NCBI RefSeq assembly: GCF_032854445.1
Contig: NC_088300.1
Location: 29,431,608 to 29,495,607 of the forward strand
DNA: 64,000 nt
Direction of reading: 5' to 3'
From: Liolophura sinensis
Lineage: Eukaryota > Mollusca > Polyplacophora > Chitonida > Chitonidae
In this document: positions 1,756 to 44,200 of the stretch, in pieces
Layout of the letters: the number at the start of each line of letters is the position of its first letter
Numbering within the stretch: position 1 is the stretch's first letter
Program-made: the position numbers and the translations under genes
Notes under the pieces: generated by a model
The model's database searches: none
The model's input: only the letters and a program-made list of their open reading frames with translations
Told to the model about the DNA's origin: nothing

Positions 1756-4700
1756 AAGCCGGAAGTGGTGAGTGTTTGTCTACAAAGTCAGGATTTCATT
1801 GGTCTAGGCTTCAATATCCAGGGCAGCATCCGTGATGGGATCCGCGTCAGCCAGGTTCATAACCGAGGGCCCGCTATAGAGTCTGGAAAAATCCATGCAG
1901 GTAAGGCCAATTTCCATTGGTGATTTTACCATCCAATCATTTACAGGATGGAATCCAACTCTGTGCTTTCAAACGTTTTGAAATTTGTTATTTAGCATTT
2001 TGAAATTTGTTATTCAGCAGTTTGAAATTTGTTGACCATGGTCAGAAAACATGATTTATAAGCATTATAAAACGTTTTTAAAATGACTGGAAAATTGTTA
2101 AGTACAAAGTTAAACCCCAAGCACTCACTCACTAACTCAAGCTCCCTGGTGAAGTGTATTGCCCATGTTGAAAGATAGGCCGCCTGTGTTAAAGGGTTGG
2201 ACATGAAAAATTTCGCCGACTGGCTGATGCATCAATGAACTTACAGAATAACTTAGTCGCAACTTAAAGTGTGCCCTAAATGACCATAAATTTCGTCTGC
2301 CACTATCTGGCCCATTTTTCCTGATTCTGAGAGTTCTATTGACTTTGGAAAGGTGTTTTGAGGAACATGCTTGGAACATGAGATGATTTTCTTCTGGACA
2401 ATTGTAAGTTTAAGAAACGAAAGTAATATTTATGACATTTATTTGCACCTCAAAATGCACATTTGTGAAATGAGGGATCATTAAGGGTACATGTACACAC
2501 ATGGGAGGGGATATCATGGCAAGTATACATTGTTTGTAGATAAGCTATAAAGTTTCAGTTCTTAAGCATTTGTTATTTTCTGGCTGTTTCTCAGGTGATC
2601 GCATACAAAGTGTGACAATATCCTTTGAGTCGATGGTGTATGAAGATGCTCTGACCATCCTCAGCTACGCATCTCCTTATCCAGTGAAGGTTACACTGCA
2701 AAAGAATGGCCGCATGGTGCCCGACAGGCGCAGTGCCAATGACCTTGACACTCAGCTCAATCACCCAATCTACCGCAGCCAGTCACTGGACACTTTGAAC
2801 ACAGTTGGAAAAGATTCAGCATTCAAAAAGAAGAGAAACTTCAGTGAAATGAAGCCCGATTCTTATAGAAATGGCCATTCTAAGATTCACAGTGTACAGC
2901 TCTCATCCTGCAAGGAAGGGCAGCCAAAGCAAAAGTGGGAAGACATCAACTTACCTGTTTTTCAAGATGGAAAATACTCCGAAGAAGCTGATAAACTGTT
3001 CTCTGATGCAGACAAGTTGTTTAACGAAGCTAAGCGGAATGCAGAGAAAAGGGATGATGTGAACATTAAGGTGAAAACTGAGAATGTCGAGGTTTCTCCA
3101 GCTGAGGTGAGCTTGAATGCCAATACTGATAAAACTGACAGTTCTTTCTTTGACGTGACAGCAGGCAGTTTGTCCACACTGAATGATTCCAGTCTGCCTT
3201 CAGATACATTAGATGACATTACTGTATCCCTTAACAACACACCTGTCAAGGATGTCAGTCAGAGCATTAACAATGGCAAAAGTGAAACAGCACAGGCAGC
3301 ATTGGACTTCGATGCCATGTTTAGTAGAATAGAGAGTACAGAAAAGCCTCCGGCGTATAGCACATTGCAGGACAAAATTGACGAGACTTTGAACACTGAA
3401 GATCCCTCTAGACAAAATAATTCCAAGGATGGAAGGACTGTTAATTTGTTTGATGTACAATTGGAGATGGATGCGGCTGAGACCAGAGTTGCCAATGTGT
3501 CTGATGATATTGTGGATGCTAAACAGTCCCTAGCGACAGAGGCAGAAGTAAGTCTGGGGTCTCTTCAGCAGAATCGGTTAGAGGTGGAGGAAGGCATTGT
3601 GCCCATAGTGCAGAGCTCCAGGTTGAACGCCGCTCTGGACTTTGACAAACGTAGCAGTGTTGAGGAGGAAGACATTGTGCCTCAGAATCACAAGAAAGCC
3701 TTTGATATTGACACTCAGATCGAGTTTGAGGACGTGGAGATTGATGTAAACAACGACAATGAGGTCAGAGATCTTACTGAAATAACAAAAATGTTAAGTG
3801 AGGACATGTTGCGGGACAGTTCCTCTGTGGAAGCGTCCATGAGTGGAAATATTCCCTCGGACACGGAAGCTGTGGTGGAGGAGAATCTAGAGGCTGTGAG
3901 TGTGAGGCGAGACAGTAGCACTGATAAGATTTATGGCGCCAGCCTGCGTGACTCGCGTTCACTCTTCGAGAACGAACCCACCGTGGTGTCAGAGGTGGTG
4001 ACACAGGAGTTTGCTGCGCCAAAGTTCTCCGTGATGTCCCCAGGAAAGGTAACATCCAGCAGCGGCGACGAGGACAGCTCGGCAGAGGAGGGCGAGTACA
4101 AAATCGAGTCCACGGTGAGTGATGAGAACATTGAGGTGAGTCATGATTTGAGTGCTGAGGATTTGAACTCTTTCAAAGCGCAAATGATGGCTGACAGAGA
4201 CAGGGCGTATCGTGTTGAGGCGTCCAGTGGGGACGTGGTCCAGGAGTTATGGAGAGCCAACACGGAAGAGGACACCACAGATTTGTCTACCCGTCCAATG
4301 ACAAGGGCCATGTCCTACGATGTTGCCATGGGAGGACACGAAAAAACTGTCCAAAGAGAGGACAGGCCAGGCTCGTTTAAGTCAGAAAAGAAAGGTCATT
4401 CTGACTCAGGTTTCTTGGACTGGTCTGGTAAGCGACTTGTGCGGTCTGGGTCGTTCAGTGAAATCCCCAGTGTTGATGGTAAAGACGGGGAGAATCGCAA
4501 TTGGACATTTAACAACAACATCGATGACGAGTCTGTGAAACACGAGCTGAAAAAATACAAAAACTACGAGGACTTGAGGGATTCTGATTCAGAATCTGAA
4601 GAGCAGTCGTCAGGCTTGATCAGAACTAAAATATATCCCGGGTTTGAGAATTTAAAAAATTTGTCAGATAATAATTCTGGTGCATCGAGTCACTCTTCCT

Positions 4701-12000: not shown

Positions 12001-12723
12001 TAAGAAAGTAGGGGATATACATATAAATATTCAATATCTTTTAAAACCAGTACTTAAAATTGAACACTTTATTCAACAGCGATGATAAAGAGAAATCTGA
12101 AGAAAAAAATTTCGAAATGAACCCCAGTCAGATTCACGCAATACAACTGCTCAGTTTGGGTTTGTACTGACGACTATCAAAACACGCTGTGAACATCCTA
12201 TCCGCATTCTTTAATCATTCATATTTATGAAAAATTAAAGTACGGACTGAATGGAATTTCCCCTACTTTTCTTTTTAATAATAATAAATATATTTATTAT
12301 CTATAATTATACCGCATGTAATAAATTTCCCTACTATATCGTATCGAAAATAATCCAGTAACAAGCATCCTACTAACACTGAACTCAAATTATGTTCCAA
12401 CAACTTCCTTTTATGGACATGAGAACACACTGAGCATTTTACTGATAATGATGTTATCAATTAGATTGGTGGAGGAAACCGTGTTTTGAGAAGACTATAG
12501 TGTTTTGGGTAAACAAAGCACTGACCTTTGGTAAGTTACTGACAACCTTTCTCATATGTAATGTACAGGTAAAACAACATATCATTGATGAAATGGCGAT
12601 ATGTGTGGTCAGTTTTAAAACTAGAATTATCTAGTGGAAATTACTAGTGTGCGTTGCAGTTGCTGCCGTGTCTCGTGAAAATTTCAGTGCATTTCACTTT
12701 CATCTACTAGAGGGCTCTTTGTG

Positions 12724-13100
12724 GATTTATTTATTTATTTTTGTAAACATATTGGTGTTCAACCCCGTCATCAAGAATTGCGTCTCTTATACAGTCAGGT
12801 CTATGGGGTGGAGGAAACCGCCTTGCCTATAGTAAGCCACCGCCCTTTTCCCAGGTGCTTGTAAAACCTTCTGATTTAAAGTCGCAGCCGAAGTATAGCA
12901 AGAGCTCCATTCCAGCCTTCCACATCATTATAGTCAGAGGCCAATCGGCTGCAGCAGCGTGGCCAGCATAACGCTTTAGAGGCATGTGGGCCGTCTTAAG
13001 AAGCTGTCGTAACTCTACGCCAAGCGCATTTACCATACATGGTGGCTTATCTCTCCTCTGGATGCTACCATGGATGTAACAGGGGCATGCCAGGGGCATG
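12724..13100 (-). repeat. Repeat-like block with a SINE A-type tail and a different body
   Basis: Starts with (TTTA)n, then a degenerate family A-like tail (ttggtgttcaaccccg, then tcaagaatt) and a ggaggaaaccgcc box. The following ~270 bases do not match SINE A or B. A 90-residue open frame on the - strand (12827-13099) resembles no known protein. It is either a third SINE family or an old SINE A tail next to unrelated sequence. Confidence 0.3.
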
Positions 13101-14779
13101 TTACAACTTCCTCATAAGACAGGTTTCAGTGTTAAACAAAGCGTGTGTAAATTTGTGCGAGCGTAATTAACTACCGTGGTAACACCACTGAAGAGATGCT
13201 TAGGGTATTGCAGGTAAACATTTCTTTTAGTTATATGATAAAGCCAGAAAGCACAGAGTGTATTAAGCATGACGCAATTATTGTGCCAACCAATTGAACA
13301 AAATATTGTGATTATAGGTCTGTAACAGTTTGAAAACACAATATTGTGTTTATTATCCTGGATAATAGCTCACGCCGTTTAACTACATCTCATTTTAAAC
13401 AAAATAAAATTAAACTATAGTTGTCAGGTCCAGTGTAAATCGTCTGTATTATAACTTTAAAGGGGCAGTCTATGAATTCTTTCACACCCTTAAAATACAT
13501 ATACATGTATTGTATAAAAAAATAGTTAACGACTTGTTCAACAAATTAATGCATTTCCAGTTTGGGAGTTTTTGAGAACTTTATATGCGTAGGTCCTATT
13601 TGATAGGTGTATATACAAAAAGATGTAAAGGACTACAGACAAAGCCCACGGGGTTATATATTTATGTATGTCTAATATCAAACAATCTGACGCGCATAAC
13701 ATTTAGCTAGCTCATTGGAGGTCTGACTGGTTGTTTATCGCTTACCGTCACAAGTACATTTGTTTACCTGTGCATTGTTGTTTTTTTTTTGTTTGTTTGT
13801 TTATTTGTTTTGTTTTGTTTTTTCGCTGTCTATTATCTACTTGCGTAACGGCGTTGCATCTTTGGCCGAATTATTATGTAGGGCCACTTCTGTTTGGCTA
13901 CGTACAAGTACTTGCATTATACCTTTTATGATAACGCATACAACCCGGGATACATATGCTATGTTGTATTCCAGATACAACCGTTCACAAAAAAAAAACA
14001 GGTCGGCAACTAGCTGAGCTAAGCCTGTGAATGCATGATACGGCATGAGCGTCTGAAACAGTCTATAGTGGCCCTACAGCATACCTTAGCGACTGCACAC
14101 TTATCTCAGTTGTAGGCCAGTGGGCGGCATATTTCTGTCTGCTCTACATCACTTGTATACAATTGCCGGGTTTTAACATCGACTTACAATCAGGTATATA
14201 CGGTAATTCACATCGCTGTGGTTCACCGGACGTATATAGACTGACACTAAGAAGATTTGCATAAACCTCTTCACATTTCAGGAAGATTGGAAGATCACAT
14301 ATACACACAGGCCTGTGTACACAGCGATTTACGCGTGAACTGTATTCCTGGAGCCTTGACGTTCACCCAAGGAAGACCGGTTCGTCGGGTTGAGTCATCT
14401 GTCAATCAAAGGCGGTAGACACCTGAGACGTACGTGCGATACCCGTGTCCGTGCTAACGAGCTACTTTCTCAGGTAACAGTAATTAGTGTGTAGGTAGGT
14501 GAGATTGTTCGAGTGGTGAGGCGAGGAAGCCGTGTATAACTATGCTTCCCTATATACGCATTGTGAGCTTGTAAATCATAAGGCTGTGTGTAAGTTTCTA
14601 TTCGAATACCGGGACAAGAAGTAAGACATTCCGTCACACATCTGTTCAGAGCTGTATCATACCTGCCTGCCATTCACCTTGTGGAAGTGTACGCTACAGT
14701 CAACTCTCCCTTTTCCTCTCCAGCAGGGCCAGTATTTACCGTCACAGAGGTGCCCGTGGGTTTATACTGGGATATCATC

Positions 14780-25613: not shown

Positions 25614-28600
25614 CTAGAAGAAGTCGTCTGTTATCCCGTCTGTATGAGGCTGTAAACCTCTCTCTAACAAGGCCTTTTTCTTCCTTTCTTCATCCTGTTG
25701 TTTGACAAGCTGCTCCTCTCTTTGTATCTCCAGTATTTCTTCTATGGACACCTGCTCCAGACTAGGGTTCTCCTCTGTGGCCAGGTTCTATAACCAGCAT
25801 AATACATATGTAATATCAGTGGTGTAACTTAATTTTTTTTTTGGTGCCTGCCATCAGGGCAGCCTGCACCTCGAGTCAGCCTGCCTTCACTGGAAAGGGC
25901 CCGCCATCAGGGCAGGAAAAAGTCTTAATCCACCTACCCACAGCCAATGTTCGACAGAACCAAATATTACCAACCAAAAAGCCCTTGATGAAATGAATTT
26001 ATTTATTTATTTATTTGATTGGTGTTTTACGCCGTACTCAAGAATATTTCACTTATATGATGGCGGCCAGCATTATGGTAGGTGAAAAATGGGCAGAGCC
26101 CGGGGGAAACCCACGACCTTGACGAAATGGATGACACAATGAAGCACAATATAAATTGATCAATCTCCTGACTTGGTCATACTAGTTCAATAAAATTAAA
26201 TGCTGAGGTCTATAGTTTTCAACAATTTCTAATATTTACCTGCCTCAACGTTTAATTGTTGAATTAAAAAGCCTGGTAGGTTCATTCCGCAGGGCACTTT
26301 GCGGAAGGAAGTGGGCATTTAAATCCACTTCGAAATGGTTGCACACTCCAAATTCTGGTGCGCATTAAAGAGAATAGGACCTTTATTACCACTCCTGCGA
26401 AAATAAATCCATTCCTGAGTCAAAATATTGTTGAAATCCACAGAAATATTTCCTTCTCCCTTGTCAAAATAACTTTGCTGTCATGGCAAGTCGGGTGTAC
26501 TTAAATCTCAGAACCACATGCCAAAAAATACGGAAATCAACCTGACAAGACAAGACCACAAAAACAATCTTAAATAACAACTAGCCAAGATTTCATCAGT
26601 CATCATGGATGCAGAATAGAAAGAACAATTTGCTGAGTCAGTCAATTCTAAAGGTTCCAGTCAAGGCTTGAGGATAGCATGAGCACATCTGCTTCTTTAT
26701 CCATGTTTTCTGCCTGTGGCCGCAGATACAATCTGGATTTTGGATGCACCCAATGCGTCGCGCATGCACGCTGCGATATTGAAAAGAAAAAAGTCAACAC
26801 TTTATCAGGTTTTCTGCATATAACTAGTCTGAAATTCATTAAAACTTACAAGAGTGATCGAAAAGACCCATCTCTTCTCAGTCCATGCCAGAAATCGGCG
26901 TGTGCCGCTGTTTCGGAGTGGATTTAACAGCCAACTGCGTGTTGCAAATTACATTGCATTACAAACTGAGTATCCGAAATTGTTGAAAACAGACCTCAAT
27001 GTTTAATTTAATTGAGAACCAGTAGCTTTACCTTTGTTGGACTTTTTGGAACAATGTTCATTAGAAAACGATGCATGCCCCAAAATTGCAGTTTCTCGTT
27101 AGCAACTGATTTGACATTAAAAATACAATCTCTCCTGTGCCCGGCTTACTGTTCTGGATGTATGCATTGCAGTTACTGTACCGCAAGGAACCGAGTCACA
27201 GAGAACACAGAAAACTTCCTCACCAATTTGCGAAACTATTGTGTGGCTGAGGCACAATGTGTGGAGTTAACAACAACAACAGAAGAGTAAAACGGTAACG
27301 CATGACATCCATCGGACATTATTTTTTTTTTTTTTTTTTTTGATTGGTGTTTTACGCCGTACTCAAGAATATTTCACTTATACGACGACGTCCAGCATTA
27401 TGGTGGGTGGAAACCGCGCACAGCCCGGGGGAAACCCACGACCATCCACAGGTTGCTGACAGACCTTCCCACTTACTGCCGGAGAGAAAGCCAGCATGAG
27501 CTGGACTTGAACTCACAGCGACCGCATTGGTGAGAGGCTCCTGGGTCATTACGCTGCGCTAGCGCGCTAACCGACTGAGCCATGGAGGCCCCCATCGGAC
27601 ATTACAAGTTGAATGTATTTGTAAAGGAGAAAATGGTATTGAGAAATAGTGGCTGCCCCTTTGGGCAGGCTACGCGAGCGAGTAACATGCCTGCGATTTT
27701 TAACTGCATTTGGCATGCGGGCAGGCATTAAGTTACACCATTGAACAGGTTGCAACCATTAAATATATGTTCCTTTAGAGTACTGTATTTTACTTGAAGT
27801 TTGGAGTGTAAAAACAAGTTTTTATTGGTATTTATTGAATGAGGCATGTGTTCACCCCTAGAGTTTGTACAAGAGCCATAAAAGTAGATATCAAGCTCTG
27901 CCCACATGTATGCAAAATGACACATTACTACTGCATCTAAACATGTCGCTAAATTTATCTGTTAGGAAATGACGAGATCTTGGATAACACACCAAGCTCA
28001 CAAATGTCTGAAATATGAACACATCAATTATTTTTATCAGTTTACTCCTTCTTATGACAAATCGACAGTTGAATTTATTTACTTATTTATTCATTTGATT
28101 GGTGTTTTTACTAGTATGCTGTTGTACTCATGCGAAGATATGGGCTAGCAATACCTTGCCATTTTCACATCATAAGGACATTACATACTCACAATTTCTC
28201 CCAGTAGGACAACATTCTCTCCTCGCACAAGAAAGACACCTCTAGGAATATCGCCATACTTCTTCCCAACATGAATCCGCTCTATGGTTCGATGGAGGAC
28301 CAGGTTTGCTGAAAAGAGGCCATCATTCAATTTGATTTTGATTGGATTTATTTATTTATTTGATTGGTGTATTATGCCGTACTCAAAATATTTCACTCAT
28401 GTGATGGCAGCCAGGACCCACGACCATCTGCAGATTGCTGGCAGACCTTGATTTTGATTGTAGTTTTTCACAATACTGAAGAATATTTCATTTTTACGAC
28501 AGCTGCCAGCATTATGGAGGGATTAAACTAGGCAGAGCCCGGGGAAAGCCGATGATCATCTGCAGGTTGCTGGAAAACCTTCACACATATAACCTGCTAT

Positions 28601-30896
28601 CATTTCACTTCTTCTAACTAAGAACAACCGGCCCGGATAGCACAGTTGGTAGAGCGTCCGCTTCGGGACCGGTAGATCCAGGATCAATCCTTGGTCGAGT
28701 CACACCTAAGACTTTAAAAGAGGAAGTTGTAACTTCCTCGCTTCACGTTCAGCATGAAGGGGATAGTGCAACGACTGGTTGACCCGTATCAGTATAATGG
28801 CTCGGGCGGGGCGGCTTACTTGCCTTCGGTAAGTCGTCTCAGTGATGCAGCACTAAATAAAAGAGTGGTGGAAATCCGTCCTGCAACAAGAAGGCACATT
28901 ACACGTGCATGCACCCTAATGATTCCTTCGTCATCATATGACTGAAAAATTGTTGAGTACGACGTTAAACCCCAAGCACTCACTCACTCTAACTAAGAAC
29001 ATTAAAGATACAAAGAATCGATGCTGACTGCAGTTACACTCAGTATATAGTGCCGACAACACAAATCTTCCCAGTAGTCATAGACAACATTTTCCAAAAC
29101 AGTTTGTGGTTACTTATCTTCATTCATGCCACTTTACATAATAAATGTAGGCCGGTTTTTTTTTTTTCTTTTTTTTTTTTTCAGACACAAAGAGCTGGAT
29201 TAGGTCCTGGCATAATCTGACATCTCTCTCTCACACTAGTCAATCACAGATAAGTCCATACCCTAATATTAAACATTGATTTAATATTAAACATTCATAA
29301 AATTCTTACTTTCAAAGGTTTATTCACCTACAAATGCCACCTAGTCCTACTGGTCCTATTGTAAATAAGGTGAACACATGACCACACCAACAGAGTTTGC
29401 CATTTATATCAAAATCAAATACAATGTATTGTAGCTTTCTTACCGAACTGGTCTATACTTCGCAAGTATCCAATAAGTGTTCTTCCATCACGCAGGACAA
29501 CCAGCTGCTTTTCTGAAATGGACATAAAATGTCATTACTATGAGGAAAACAACATAACCTTCACGAATTTCAGTTCTATATATTGACTGGTCTTGATGTA
29601 CAGGTAGTACTGATTACAATAAAAGCAGCATGACTTACATGTACCTGAGACAATAAGCGACATTCTTATTTCGGAACATGTGCCACTACACTCGCCACAA
29701 CAAAACAGCCGTGATTAAATTAGCACCCATTCGCGGAAGTGGCCTTTGAAATTTCTCCTTTTCACAGCCAATATAACAGCAAGCTTTCAAAGTAACACTT
29801 TTTACTTGGTGTTTTCAGTTTCTCCATTGTTTTTACCAGTTTTACTAGGGGACACAATTTCCAATGCAGAATTTCAATGAAACAAACATTTAATGTAGCA
29901 AGTATGCTGCCGCCAGGTTAAAACATGGGCTGTTCAGTGAAAATTAGCAGCCAGCTTCCCTGTAATGTGAGATCCCACGCATTTTCCGTTAAAAAAATGA
30001 CGCCCTTCTGAAATGCGAAAGTGACTTATTAAGCAGAGCAGCTAAAGCTTACGGACAGTTTACAATAACATGGCAGATGTATACTGAAATTAACATATCA
30101 TAAGTACTGAAGTTGTCTTATCAATCTAAATGTATGTTCATTTTTGACATCACAAAATGTGTGTGGTTATGGAAAAGGCCTGAGAGAATATGATGTGCAT
30201 TTGGTCAGATAAACATATGTGAAAGTGTTTATTAGCGCTGGAATCTGTTCCACATAACTTTGGCGAGTGGCAGATTTTTTGATTAAAGGTTGAGCAGCCT
30301 TGGACATTGGTTATGGTGTATTCGAATATTTCTCAGTGGACGGTCTAACTAATCAGTGCACACATACTAATTACAGACATACAACTAATGGAGATAAAAC
30401 ATGTTATTTTATGGTAGTTTGCTAGACTAAATACACATCTGTCTGTCAACTCAACGATGCCGTTGGCACCTAATGCAAAATCACGTCTTTTAGCTGCGGT
30501 AGTTCACGACAGCCCACATCTTGTCTTGCCTAAATCTGCGTGAGCACCCCAGACCCCTGAAATGTCGACTGGGCTTACACATGAAAATAAACAAAATTTC
30601 AAAATTTTTAACTTCTCTTAATATGGGCTTTTTTTTTTTTTTTTTTTTGCCTCTTGGGTTCCCATTATGGGTATGAAAAATTGCTTACAATGACCATGCC
30701 ATTATCAGAATGAAAAGGCGCTCTGCCCTTCAAAGGTACACGTGTGTTTATGATGCTTGTCATACTGTTGTGTTGTTGCTGTAACTTTATCACTATCAGT
30801 ATCACCATTATGCACCGCACGTAAGAAAACCAAATGGTGGGAGAACATACTATCAATTTCCTTCACCAGACTCGCTGTTCCTGGAAGATAGTCCAT
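25614..30896 (-). CDS. LSM1: LSM1, mRNA decapping-associated Sm-like protein
   Basis: Four - strand exons: 30851-30896, 29444-29512, 28193-28308 and 25614-25787. All introns are GT-AG (donors gtatgt, gtaaga, gtgagt) and phases agree, giving 134 residues; animal LSM1 is about 133. The N-terminus reads [17 protein letters not shown]. The Sm1 motif follows ([20 protein letters not shown]) and Sm2 contains [12 protein letters not shown]. The C-terminal tail has the family signature [11 protein letters not shown] and is charged. LSM1 is the defining subunit of the cytoplasmic Lsm1-7 ring, which with Pat1 binds the 3' ends of deadenylated mRNAs and promotes decapping, usually in P-bodies. ATG 30896 has G at -3 and G at +4. 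Intron 3 (25788-28192) is filled with SINEs and nested inverted-repeat elements. No poly(A) signal was identified. It is divergent from the BTB-kelch gene. Confidence 0.97.
25996..26116 (-). mobile_element. SINE A, 5' truncated, with duplication
   Basis: (TTTA)n, gattggtgttttacgccgta, atggcggccagcattatgg, gggcagagcccgggggaaac. Flanked by ccttgatgaaatg (25983-25995) and ccttgacgaaatg (26117-26129), a 13-bp target duplication with one mismatch. It therefore inserted in its truncated form. Confidence 0.9.
26182..27017. mobile_element. Inner inverted-repeat element (MITE-like)
   Basis: The left end (ctagttcaat, gaggtctatagttttc, aacaatttc) matches the reverse complement of the right end (26974-27017: gaaattgttgaaaac, agacctcaatg, tttaatttaattga) over about 45 bp. 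A related segment sits in an EEF1G intron at 49075-49232, showing that this is a dispersed family. No convincing coding frame lies inside. Confidence 0.65.
27322..27591 (-). mobile_element. SINE A, full length, with target-site duplication
   Basis: The most complete copy. It is flanked by the perfect 13-bp duplication ccatcggacatta at 27309-27321 and 27592-27604. On the - strand it has the tRNA-like head with A box (ggctcagtcggttagcg) and B box (gagttcaagtcc), the body and the TTGAGTACGGCGTAAAAC tail with an 18-bp poly(A). Confidence 0.96.
28072..28125 (-). repeat. SINE A tail fragment
   Basis: (TTTA)n-like run, gattggtgtttt, then a disrupted tail with gttgtactca. Lies just downstream of LSM1 exon 3 in gene sense. 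Confidence 0.6.
28345..28449 (-). repeat. SINE A copy with internal deletion
   Basis: Tail (gattggtgtattatgccgta, ctcaaaatatttcac), gatggcagccag, then directly acccacgaccatctgcag and ttgctggcagacc. The central ~40 bases are missing. Confidence 0.85.
28452..28601 (-). repeat. SINE A copy, diverged
   Basis: Adjacent to the previous copy in the same orientation: gaagaatatttcattttta, gacagctgccagcattatgg, gcagagcccggggaaa, ctgcaggttgctgg. The head is missing. Confidence 0.85.
28627..28987 (+). mobile_element. SINE B copy 1, full length, with target-site duplication
   Basis: Flanked by the perfect 14-bp duplication tctaactaagaaca at 28613-28626 and 28988-29001. The head is tRNA-like, with A box tagcacagttggtagagcg and B box ggatcaatcc. 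The body contains tcgggcggggcggcttac and the tail gaaaaattgttgagtacg, then cgttaaaccccaagcactcac. It is ~361 bp and antisense to LSM1. A 63-codon frame (28754-28945) lies inside it and is probably not coding. Confidence 0.95.
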
Positions 30897-41200: not shown

Positions 41201-44200
41201 TCACTTAAAGGTTTTCCCCTGGTTTACTTCCAGAGGGTTTCCGTCAAACTTTCCCTCCCACAGAAGATAGTCATTGATGAGCTGTCTGTCATCTGGGTTG
41301 CTGGGGTCCAACTTTCTCCAATCATAATAGGCGTAGTCTACCTGCCAGTCTTCACTCAGCTACAAATGTAACAAGTAAATGAATGAACAAGATGGGGAGT
41401 TGAGTTCTTACATTTTGTGACATGATATTTTACTTTCACCCTGCTAACTTCAAAGTTTTGTCAACACCTTTGTTAAATTCTTGCAGCCTGCACAGAATCT
41501 AGCATCACCATTTGGTGACATTTTTTTATCTATTGATGGGTTTTTCACATACACATATTCTTGTGTGCTCTATCAACTTAATAGAATTATAACCTTTCGA
41601 AAGAAATTAAAATTTGGAAGCTCAATTTGCTATATTTTGTCTATTTTGGTTGAAATTGTGAATATACCACAATTTATTTTTTCATTTGTCACATCTTCTG
41701 TCACCGTTGACATGACAGAAGTTAAATTCAAGCACACCACTATGGCGATCAGGCTAGTTGACCCTATCACCACCACTACCAATAATTGAAAAATAATAGC
41801 TGTTAATCAACCTTCAACACATTGCGCACAGTTGGTAGAGCGTCCGCTTCGGGACTGGTAGATCCAGGATCAATCCTTGGTCGAGTCACACCTAAGACTT
41901 TAAAAGAGGAAGTTGTAACTTCCTCGCTTGGCGTTCAGCATGAAGGGGATAGTGCAACGACTGGTTGACCCATATCAGTATAATGGCTCGGGCGGGGCGG
42001 CTTACTTGCCTTCGGTAAGTCGTCTCAGTGATGCAGCACTAAATAAAAGAGCGGTGGAAATCCGTCCTGCAACAAGGAGGCACATTACACGTGCATGCAC
42101 CCTAATGATTCCTTCGTCGTCATGACTGAAAAATTTTTGAGTACGACGTTAAACCCCAAGCACGCACTCACTCACTCACTCAACACATTGCTGTGAGGTT
42201 AAATCAGATCAAAATTTACACACAGCTTAGACCCTCCTTTTAGAAAAACATTTACCACTTGGAATCAAAGCAGGAGGTGAATTCCGGAAATTTTTTTTTT
42301 TTTTTTGGCCAACATTTCAGACCTCAATGTAACAAATTTGGATTGTCCTATTACATAACACATTGAATGACAATCAGAAATACACGCTTCAGGACATAAT
42401 TGTGTGACGACCTTGGACGAAGTCCTTCCAAAAGTAGGTGTTTATCCCACTTATCAAATTCATCACATACGACAAACCATGAGGCCTGTGACATGTCGTT
42501 ATAACATTTAAACTCTTCTATGTTTACCGATCTAAAATCAAAAACACCAGATAAAATAAAAACATTATTTCTTAAGTTTAAGACTTAAGAAAAACAAAAA
42601 TTTCAGTATATCTGTCATAAAATCTAACTAGTCAGTTGTTGAGCATTCCCAAATCTATCCATTTAAGGTGCACAAATGAGCATTCAAATAAGATTTCGAG
42701 TCGTAACATGTTGTGTGGATCAACCCCTGAAGTGACCGATCAGGATGACTGGGCCACAGTTGGGGATTTCTCCAAATGATGTCCCTCCCGGAACTTTTCC
42801 CTACAGCTAGTGTAAACTGGAGTAGAAGACTTGGGAGGTTTCATTTATTTGATTGGTGTTATGCACCATACTTGAGAACATTTCACTTTCATGAAGATGT
42901 CCAGCATTATGCTGGAAGGAAATCTGTGAGCCCAGAGGAAACCCATACAACTGGAGAAGAAGACAGCAGACAGGAATTCACAGGAAGTCACTGTGCTACA
43001 TCAGCATGCTGGCCAATCAGCCACAGATGCCCCAAACATGTAGAAAGTTTGGTGATTAGCTCTACCATGTCATATCTGCACTTGGACATAATTAGGTTGT
43101 TGTTACAACTCAAAATGTGAGTATCGCTCTGCATTGAACAAACCTTACCTCAAAGCCTAATTTTTGACCTTTAAACATCCAGACACCAGATATGGTAGTG
43201 TTGTTGTCCTCCCCAAAAATCAACATTGTTGCAAAAGCATTTTTTCGTAATTTCTCTATTCTCTGGAACATTCCTGGTAAATGGAAAATTTGAAATCAGT
43301 AAACCTGACAACTACTTTTAAACATGTTAACCAATTCAAATAAAACCAAATCGAAACATTCACACAATCTATATCACACTCAATATACCTGGATTTTCAA
43401 ACTTGATCTAAGGGGCTCTACAAAGCGACAATTTGAAAATTATTGTACAAAAACCTAAATGTGATAGAATGGAAAACAAAATTAAAATCCATCAATAATA
43501 TCATAATTGGGTCAAAACTATTAATGAAGTATTAAGTTCTTGGCATACACGAGTTACTGGTGTCTAAAGCTTCACAGGTATATCTATGTTCATGGATGGA
43601 GGAAACCACCCCCAGTTCGTAATCTACCGGAAAGGTCTGAGTTATCCATTTGATTGTTGTTTTGCTCCAAACTCAAGAATATTTTAGTTATACTATTGTG
43701 GCCAGCATTATGATGGGAGGAAATCGGGTAGACTTTTCCACAAACAACCGGAGAGGAACAGGCCTGAATTAAAGCTACGGCTGAAACAAATGGAGCTGAA
43801 TCCAGGACACGTTGATCAATCACCTGCAGTCAATGCTACACTTCAGTAATCAATGGACAGCAATGCCTGTACATGCATTTACAAAAACAGTACAGTTTTA
43901 ACAGTAAAACACAAACCTCCAACAAGGTTGCAACTCATAAATATCATCTTCAGCTCATCGTTATATTTGTAGTCACATTTCCACCAGGAATAATGTTCAG
44001 CATCAAAATTTTTCCACAGGTATGGAATAGCTTCTTTTGCAATGTCCTTGTTTGAATATTCTCTCTTGAATTCGTCCATATTAAATGTGCTGTGAAATAA
44101 AAAGCCATGAAACAATGGTTGGATTTAGCAAGAACTCTTAACATAGCTACACCAGTGTCAAAACATCAGTGTTGAAAAAATAGCAGTGTATTAAAACCAC

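Follow-up and report, generated by a model that had tools for sequence, protein, structure and literature searches.

Results

SINE copies in the window

The window (C6:29431608-29495607), a stretch of 64,000 nucleotides within the 609-Mb assembly, holds copies of two SINE families, A and B. A full-length SINE B copy with 97.8% identity to the family consensus (BLAST) lies on the + strand at 28627..28987, exactly where the first-pass annotation had placed it. It is flanked by a 14-bp target-site duplication (TSD), TCTAACTAAGAACA, at 28613..28626 on the left and 28988..29001 on the right. The tRNA-like head of this copy (28631-28702, +) was identified with Rfam. By consensus alignment, a 67-bp 3' block in common with SINE A occupies 28912..28978 (+). 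Within the block, a 36-nt hairpin (28929..28964, +) has the inner stem GAC/GTT and the loop TGAAAAATT; its stem 1, CGTCGT/ACGACG in the consensus, carries CGTCAT in this copy. The second SINE B copy (41826..42179, +; BLAST to the consensus) lacks the first 12 bp and lies between the two repeats of its TSD, TCAACACATTGC (41814-41825 and 42180-42191, +).

SINE A is represented by a full-length copy with a poly(A) end on the - strand (27322..27591; BLAST to the consensus), flanked by the TSD TAATGTCCGATGG at 27309-27321 and 27592-27604. Alignment to B places the common portion of its tail at 27342..27405 (-). Elsewhere in the window, more A-type copies and fragments were found, plus one tail-only B-type insert at 2081..2133 (+; BLAST to the consensus), the 5' end of which was mapped within the hairpin.

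The block at 12724-13100 had been proposed as a third user of the tail. Aligned to SINE A, it reached a total score of 42, and the body alone scored 22, with a maximum of 18 in 1000 shuffles. As both body and decayed tail are A-like, an independent third body was rejected, and the region (12721..13110, -) is best read, from its alignment, as an old relative of SINE A.

Both families had been described as having tRNA-like heads. For B this was upheld: its head scored 29.2 bits against the Rfam tRNA model (E 0.0014), barely above the gathering score of 29, and gives this family the Pol III tRNA-like head of a SINE. In the A head, box A- and box B-like motifs were seen by eye, while Rfam returned no tRNA match for it at E values up to 5.

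SINEs A and B have different bodies and a common 3' tail

Consensus sequences were built from 22 B copies (362 bp) and 27 A copies (264 bp) located elsewhere in the genome; the copies all came from the start of one contig, and the sample is therefore non-random. When the two were compared, A 185-249 aligned to B 285-351 over 67 columns with 76% identity (E 2.7e-9). The common block is thus about 67 bp long instead of the ~32 bp first estimated. The 3' blocks gave a local score of 53, where 1000 dinucleotide shuffles reached 26 at most, and the bodies without the tail scored 14 (shuffle mean 16.9). The earlier description of different bodies joined to the same tail was hence confirmed. A check set beforehand had been whether the similarity vanishes in consensus sequences; it persisted in the 22-copy B and the 27-copy A consensus and so did not vanish.

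The exact core 18-mer of the B tail (TTGAGTACGACGTTAAAC) has at least 3,477 matches in the assembly and that of the A tail (TTGAGTACGGCGTAAAAC) at least 18,518, while the reversed-sequence controls for both gave none. By these exact-tail counts both families show the dispersal and high copy number of SINEs. A degenerate version of the 18-mer core matched 26 times in 257 Gb of prokaryote DNA, where ~30 matches are expected by length (our own arithmetic). More than 21,000 core matches in 0.61 Gb thus stand against a chance-level count. In viral contigs, four core matches were found. A text search of papers for the tail letters gave no match. The bivalve-type tail TGAAATATTGTTGAAA..CGTTAAAC had a single occurrence.

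Pair-preserving differences in the tail hairpin

The SINE A tail is predicted to fold into the hairpin CGCCGU-CG-UAU-AAG-UGAAAUAUU-CUU-GAGU-ACGGCG, and the SINE B tail into CGUCGU-CA-UAU-GAC-UGAAAAAUU-GUU-GAGU-ACGACG. Aligned to each other, the 36-mers need no gaps. Seven positions differ, and both families retain all 12 pairs. Pairing is preserved at each of the six differences that lie in the stems; the seventh changes a base of the loop. Double compensatory changes are seen at pairs 3-34 (C-G to U-A) and 14-24 (G-C to C-G); at 8-30 and 12-26 pairing is kept via wobble. In simulations, seven random substitutions preserved every pair in 1.4% of trials (probability 0.014) and, given at least six substitutions in stems, in 0.2% (probability 0.002); these values refer to two families, i.e. 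two sequences with few events, and to a structure taken from B's own fold. Compared to shuffles, folding of single sequences was ordinary both for the whole tails (z -0.55 and 0.10) and for the 36-mers (z -1.96 and -1.19). The case for the hairpin therefore stands on the covariation between A and B. A conserved 3' hairpin together with tandem repeats, as in SINEs of the stringent type, is present in both families.

For the zebrafish L2 LINEs, PMC4176376 describes the stem-loop as essential, with specificity set by the loop and not the stem; exchange of the stem leaves about half of the activity in one LINE. The conserved loop and changed stems of A and B fit this pattern.

Target sites and terminal repeats

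With an exact match of at least 9 bp as the rule, TSDs were called for 35 of the 49 copies of B and for 20 of the 69 of A, so both families carry the flanking duplications expected of SINEs. Copies of A are on average older, and their A-rich tails hamper calling. In both families the TSDs are mostly 12-16 bp long. Their first two bases are TC in 26 of the 33 B copies (background 5.5%, p 6e-27). For A, the same start was found in 8 of 19 copies (background 7.9%, p 5e-5) after trimming of the leading A, which is inseparable from the A-rich tail. In TSD interiors the rate of TC is 5-8%. The TC at B TSD starts can pair with the CACTC tail end, which is impossible in A; part of B's TC starts could come from such pairing. 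The simplest reading is an endonuclease preference for T/TC on the top strand that is common to A and B, and one endonuclease may therefore serve both families.

As noted in the first-pass annotation, the terminal repeats differ, with (AAAT)n or poly(A) in A and (CACT)n in B. Poly(A)-ended A copies have 97.7% identity (n = 14) and (AAAT)n-ended copies 88.0% (n = 30; p 5e-7). Thus poly(A) marks the young A copies and (AAAT)n the old ones. The TSDs of the poly(A) copies L034, L044, L051, L038 and L040 start with (A)TC. Two old B-like tails (L035:445-491 and L035:648-695) carry terminal (CATA)n in place of (CACT)n, which suggests that the terminal repeat was altered over time. Separately, the palindrome TAGGCCTA was found 19 times in the window and loci L001-L090, where about 2.8 occurrences are expected. 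It forms a small tail insertion in two A copies (L022 near 447 and L005 near 1560).

Tail-only inserts of SINE B

Among 30 B copies chosen by the tail alone, four have their 5' end at the hairpin base, which is consensus position 301. Tail-only copies were counted genome-wide as hairpins preceded by seven letters that each differ from B. This pattern gave 44 filtered matches at the hairpin base, and control break points with the same kind of filter gave one match in the body and three inside the hairpin. After correction for the filter pass rate, about 330-355 tail-only copies are estimated, corresponding to 10.6-11.4% of 3,110 exact hairpins. Nine of ten inspected inserts have TSDs (L004, L013, L015, L023, L102, L103, L104, L105 and L106), and for the tenth, L101, none was called by the exact-match rule; the ten are a non-random sample in which L102-L106 were picked for recurring upstream letters. 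Family A has at least one tail-only copy (L096, with an imperfect TSD). Four of six A matches that were read are deletion variants of A. As a source of a third body, the upstream-exclusion patterns recovered only tail-only copies and these deletion variants. A second cluster of B 5' ends (four copies: L018, L029, L011 and L019) was observed at consensus 29-36, an anticodon-like stem-loop (GUCC-GCUUCG-GGAC).

The tail-only copies contain the entire hairpin and have their 5' end just beyond it. A block by a stable hairpin would halt the enzyme 3' of the hairpin, and since the copies keep it whole, we prefer release of the reverse transcriptase after copying through the bound hairpin. Alternatively, such inserts could stem from RNA cut at the base of the hairpin or from a short RNA that exists separately. 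Tentatively, the hot spot at the base might preserve in the genome a footprint of the moment at which target-primed reverse transcription passes from initiation to elongation. Such a footprint would show as hundreds of tail-only inserts that share the same 5' end to ~1 nucleotide.

Search for a partner LINE

The best 30 matches to PF00078 in the genome were inspected as reverse transcriptase loci. Seventeen belong to one LINE group, which by our own reading is I/Nimb/Ingi-like; seven are L1-Tx1-like, five LTR-type and one L2-like. The tail was absent within about 1.5 kb of all 30. With queries of the L2, CR1 and RTE types, nine more 3' regions were read: five CR1-like ones with a hairpin of their own, one L2-like with (AAATC)n, and three uninformative ones. 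The A/B tail was thus found in none of 39 loci bearing a reverse transcriptase or a LINE 3' end in this non-exhaustive search, which counts the five LTR-type and three uninformative loci. Among those without the tail are the 3' ends of five CR1-like and two L2-like elements, together with 29 further reverse transcriptase loci. The expected LINE ending in the tail block was therefore not seen in the search that was run.

The CR1-like 3' ends (L091, L094, L138, L139 and L140) resemble A and B in that a hairpin is followed by TAAAC/TAAAT and A-rich repeats, but their hairpin, TTGAGG..TCCTCAATAAACAAATAAAG, is a different one. The L2-like ends (L087 and L092) carry (GAAATCT)n or (AAATC)n. Two arrangements were observed in passing. 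A CR1-like LINE with a frame of 999-1008 aa recurs in apparent tandem on two small contigs, at a spacing of about 7.8 kb (C343) and 10-12 kb (C117). L2-like matches to the reverse transcriptase at C7:23704156-23768006 recur at about 9.8 kb and probably represent a tandem or segmental duplication.

The bodies attached to the tail were also listed. Of 116 tails examined, 87 are attached to a body of A or B; the 29 body-less ones look truncated or decayed and show no common third body. LINE copies therefore make up a few percent of the tails at most. The partner LINE may be rare, extinct here, or from an unsampled clade. Because the CR1-like ends have a similar architecture, a partner of the CR1 clade is a reasonable guess, but no more.

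Discussion

We consider it likely that A and B are independent SINE families whose 3' ends are homologous copies of a single LINE-type recognition tail. This tail consists of a two-stem hairpin with the loop UGAAAWAUU; (N)UAAAC or UAAAAC comes next, and then short repeats that are either A-rich or CACT. The hairpin, as a putative binding site, would present the element RNA to a reverse transcriptase from one lineage of non-LTR retrotransposons. Once the LINE endonuclease had nicked the target DNA at T/TC, target-primed reverse transcription would use the 3' repeats of the RNA. In B, the enzyme may often lose its grip and release once the hairpin has been copied, which would leave tail-only inserts of about 60 bp. 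Good support for a recognition signal that both families share and that one LINE-type machinery reads comes from the covarying conserved hairpin, the TSDs, the TC sites in both families and the tail-only copies. The earlier proposal that one LINE reverse transcriptase mobilizes both SINEs thus holds in part: it does so for the recognition signal, whereas the step to an actual LINE found no support, the tail being absent from all 39 loci of the non-exhaustive search.

The differing 3' repeats and stems also fit two related LINEs. Two subfamilies, in each of which an ancestral hairpin has taken a form of its own, could serve A and B separately, and the tails would be homologous because the LINEs are; we regard this as unlikely. 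Stems and terminal repeats do differ consistently between the families, and two zebrafish L2 LINEs each need their own hairpin (PMC4176376). However, the loop is nearly identical in A and B, TC-starting target sites occur in both, and in the zebrafish work (PMC4176376) loops, not stems, told the LINEs apart.

Somewhat less probable still is a transfer of the tail between SINEs by template switching or recombination, with at least one tail never derived directly from a LINE. The lack of a tail-bearing LINE among the inspected loci speaks for it. Against it, TSDs and 5' truncations show that the tail still works as a 3' end and hence that some reverse transcriptase recognizes it, and the two tails have diverged by pair-preserving changes and hence are no recent copy. 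A transfer would also be compatible with one LINE driving both families.

That young poly(A)-ended A copies are now mobilized via poly(A) by an L1-like enzyme appears improbable. The greater youth of these copies and the L1-Tx1-like LINEs of the genome would suit this explanation, but their hairpin is intact and several of their TSDs start with (A)TC, not with the A run of L1-type TT/AAAA sites. A conserved hairpin and TC-starting TSDs likewise set the families apart from the relaxed, L1-driven class, which is defined by recognition of poly(A) only and by TT/AAAA sites. A chance or convergent likeness among A-rich 3' ends, which has the shortness of the block and nothing more in its favor, has practically no standing and is refuted at present sampling by the shuffle scores and the prokaryote background of the core.

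With the LINE inferred, we class the pair A and B with the stringent SINEs, which are known to depend on LINEs. The stringent pairs of eel (UnaL2 and its SINE) and zebrafish (ZfL2-1, ZfL2-2) are described in PMC4176376 and PMC3747384 with the same features: hairpin, tandem repeats, TSDs and 5' truncation. Compensatory hairpin changes as in A/B are known from SINE/LINE ends of the plant L1 clade (PMC3747384). Unlike the UnaL2/ZfL2 pairs, A and B have another hairpin sequence, and their partner LINE was not found in 39 loci. The truncation signature at the hairpin base is unusually clean, and such a hot spot is not noted for the UnaL2/ZfL2 pairs in the accessible parts of PMC4176376 and PMC3747384. 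In Lepidoptera, PxSE5 and SfSE1 have different bodies and a common 3' end of 56 bp at 89.6% identity (PMC8010984). As with A and B, one LINE-like 3' end is found on SINEs that otherwise differ; their partner PxLINE1 is known (PMC8010984), whereas A and B reside in one genome and their LINE was not found among the 39 loci. A common LINE-like 3' end on different SINEs is thus an established pattern (PMC8010984 and PMC3747384), to which the present pair adds a covarying hairpin, a common target bias and a precise truncation hot spot.

Within one family, A combines tandem-repeat and poly(A) ends, as Aedes SINEs are said to do. The tails of the latter reportedly change by slippage, an account attributed to Tu et al. 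2004; as far as that account goes, the change seen here differs, since it affects A only and puts poly(A) in the young copies. Molluscan SINE superfamilies comprise V (including RUDI), Meta, Deu, Nin and CORE. A and B are like them in a length of 250-400 bp and LINE-like tails, and B is so in its tRNA-type head as well. Repeats of a similar kind would suggest a molluscan host.

SINEs rely on the enzymes of LINEs, and a LINE partner is known for few molluscan SINEs; in bivalves, LINE donors are known for only three of eight SINE families (PMC10294476). The tail used by two SINEs, the covarying hairpin and the common target bias narrow the features expected of the missing LINE, and the precise tail-only inserts provide a natural data set on where target-primed reverse transcription aborts.
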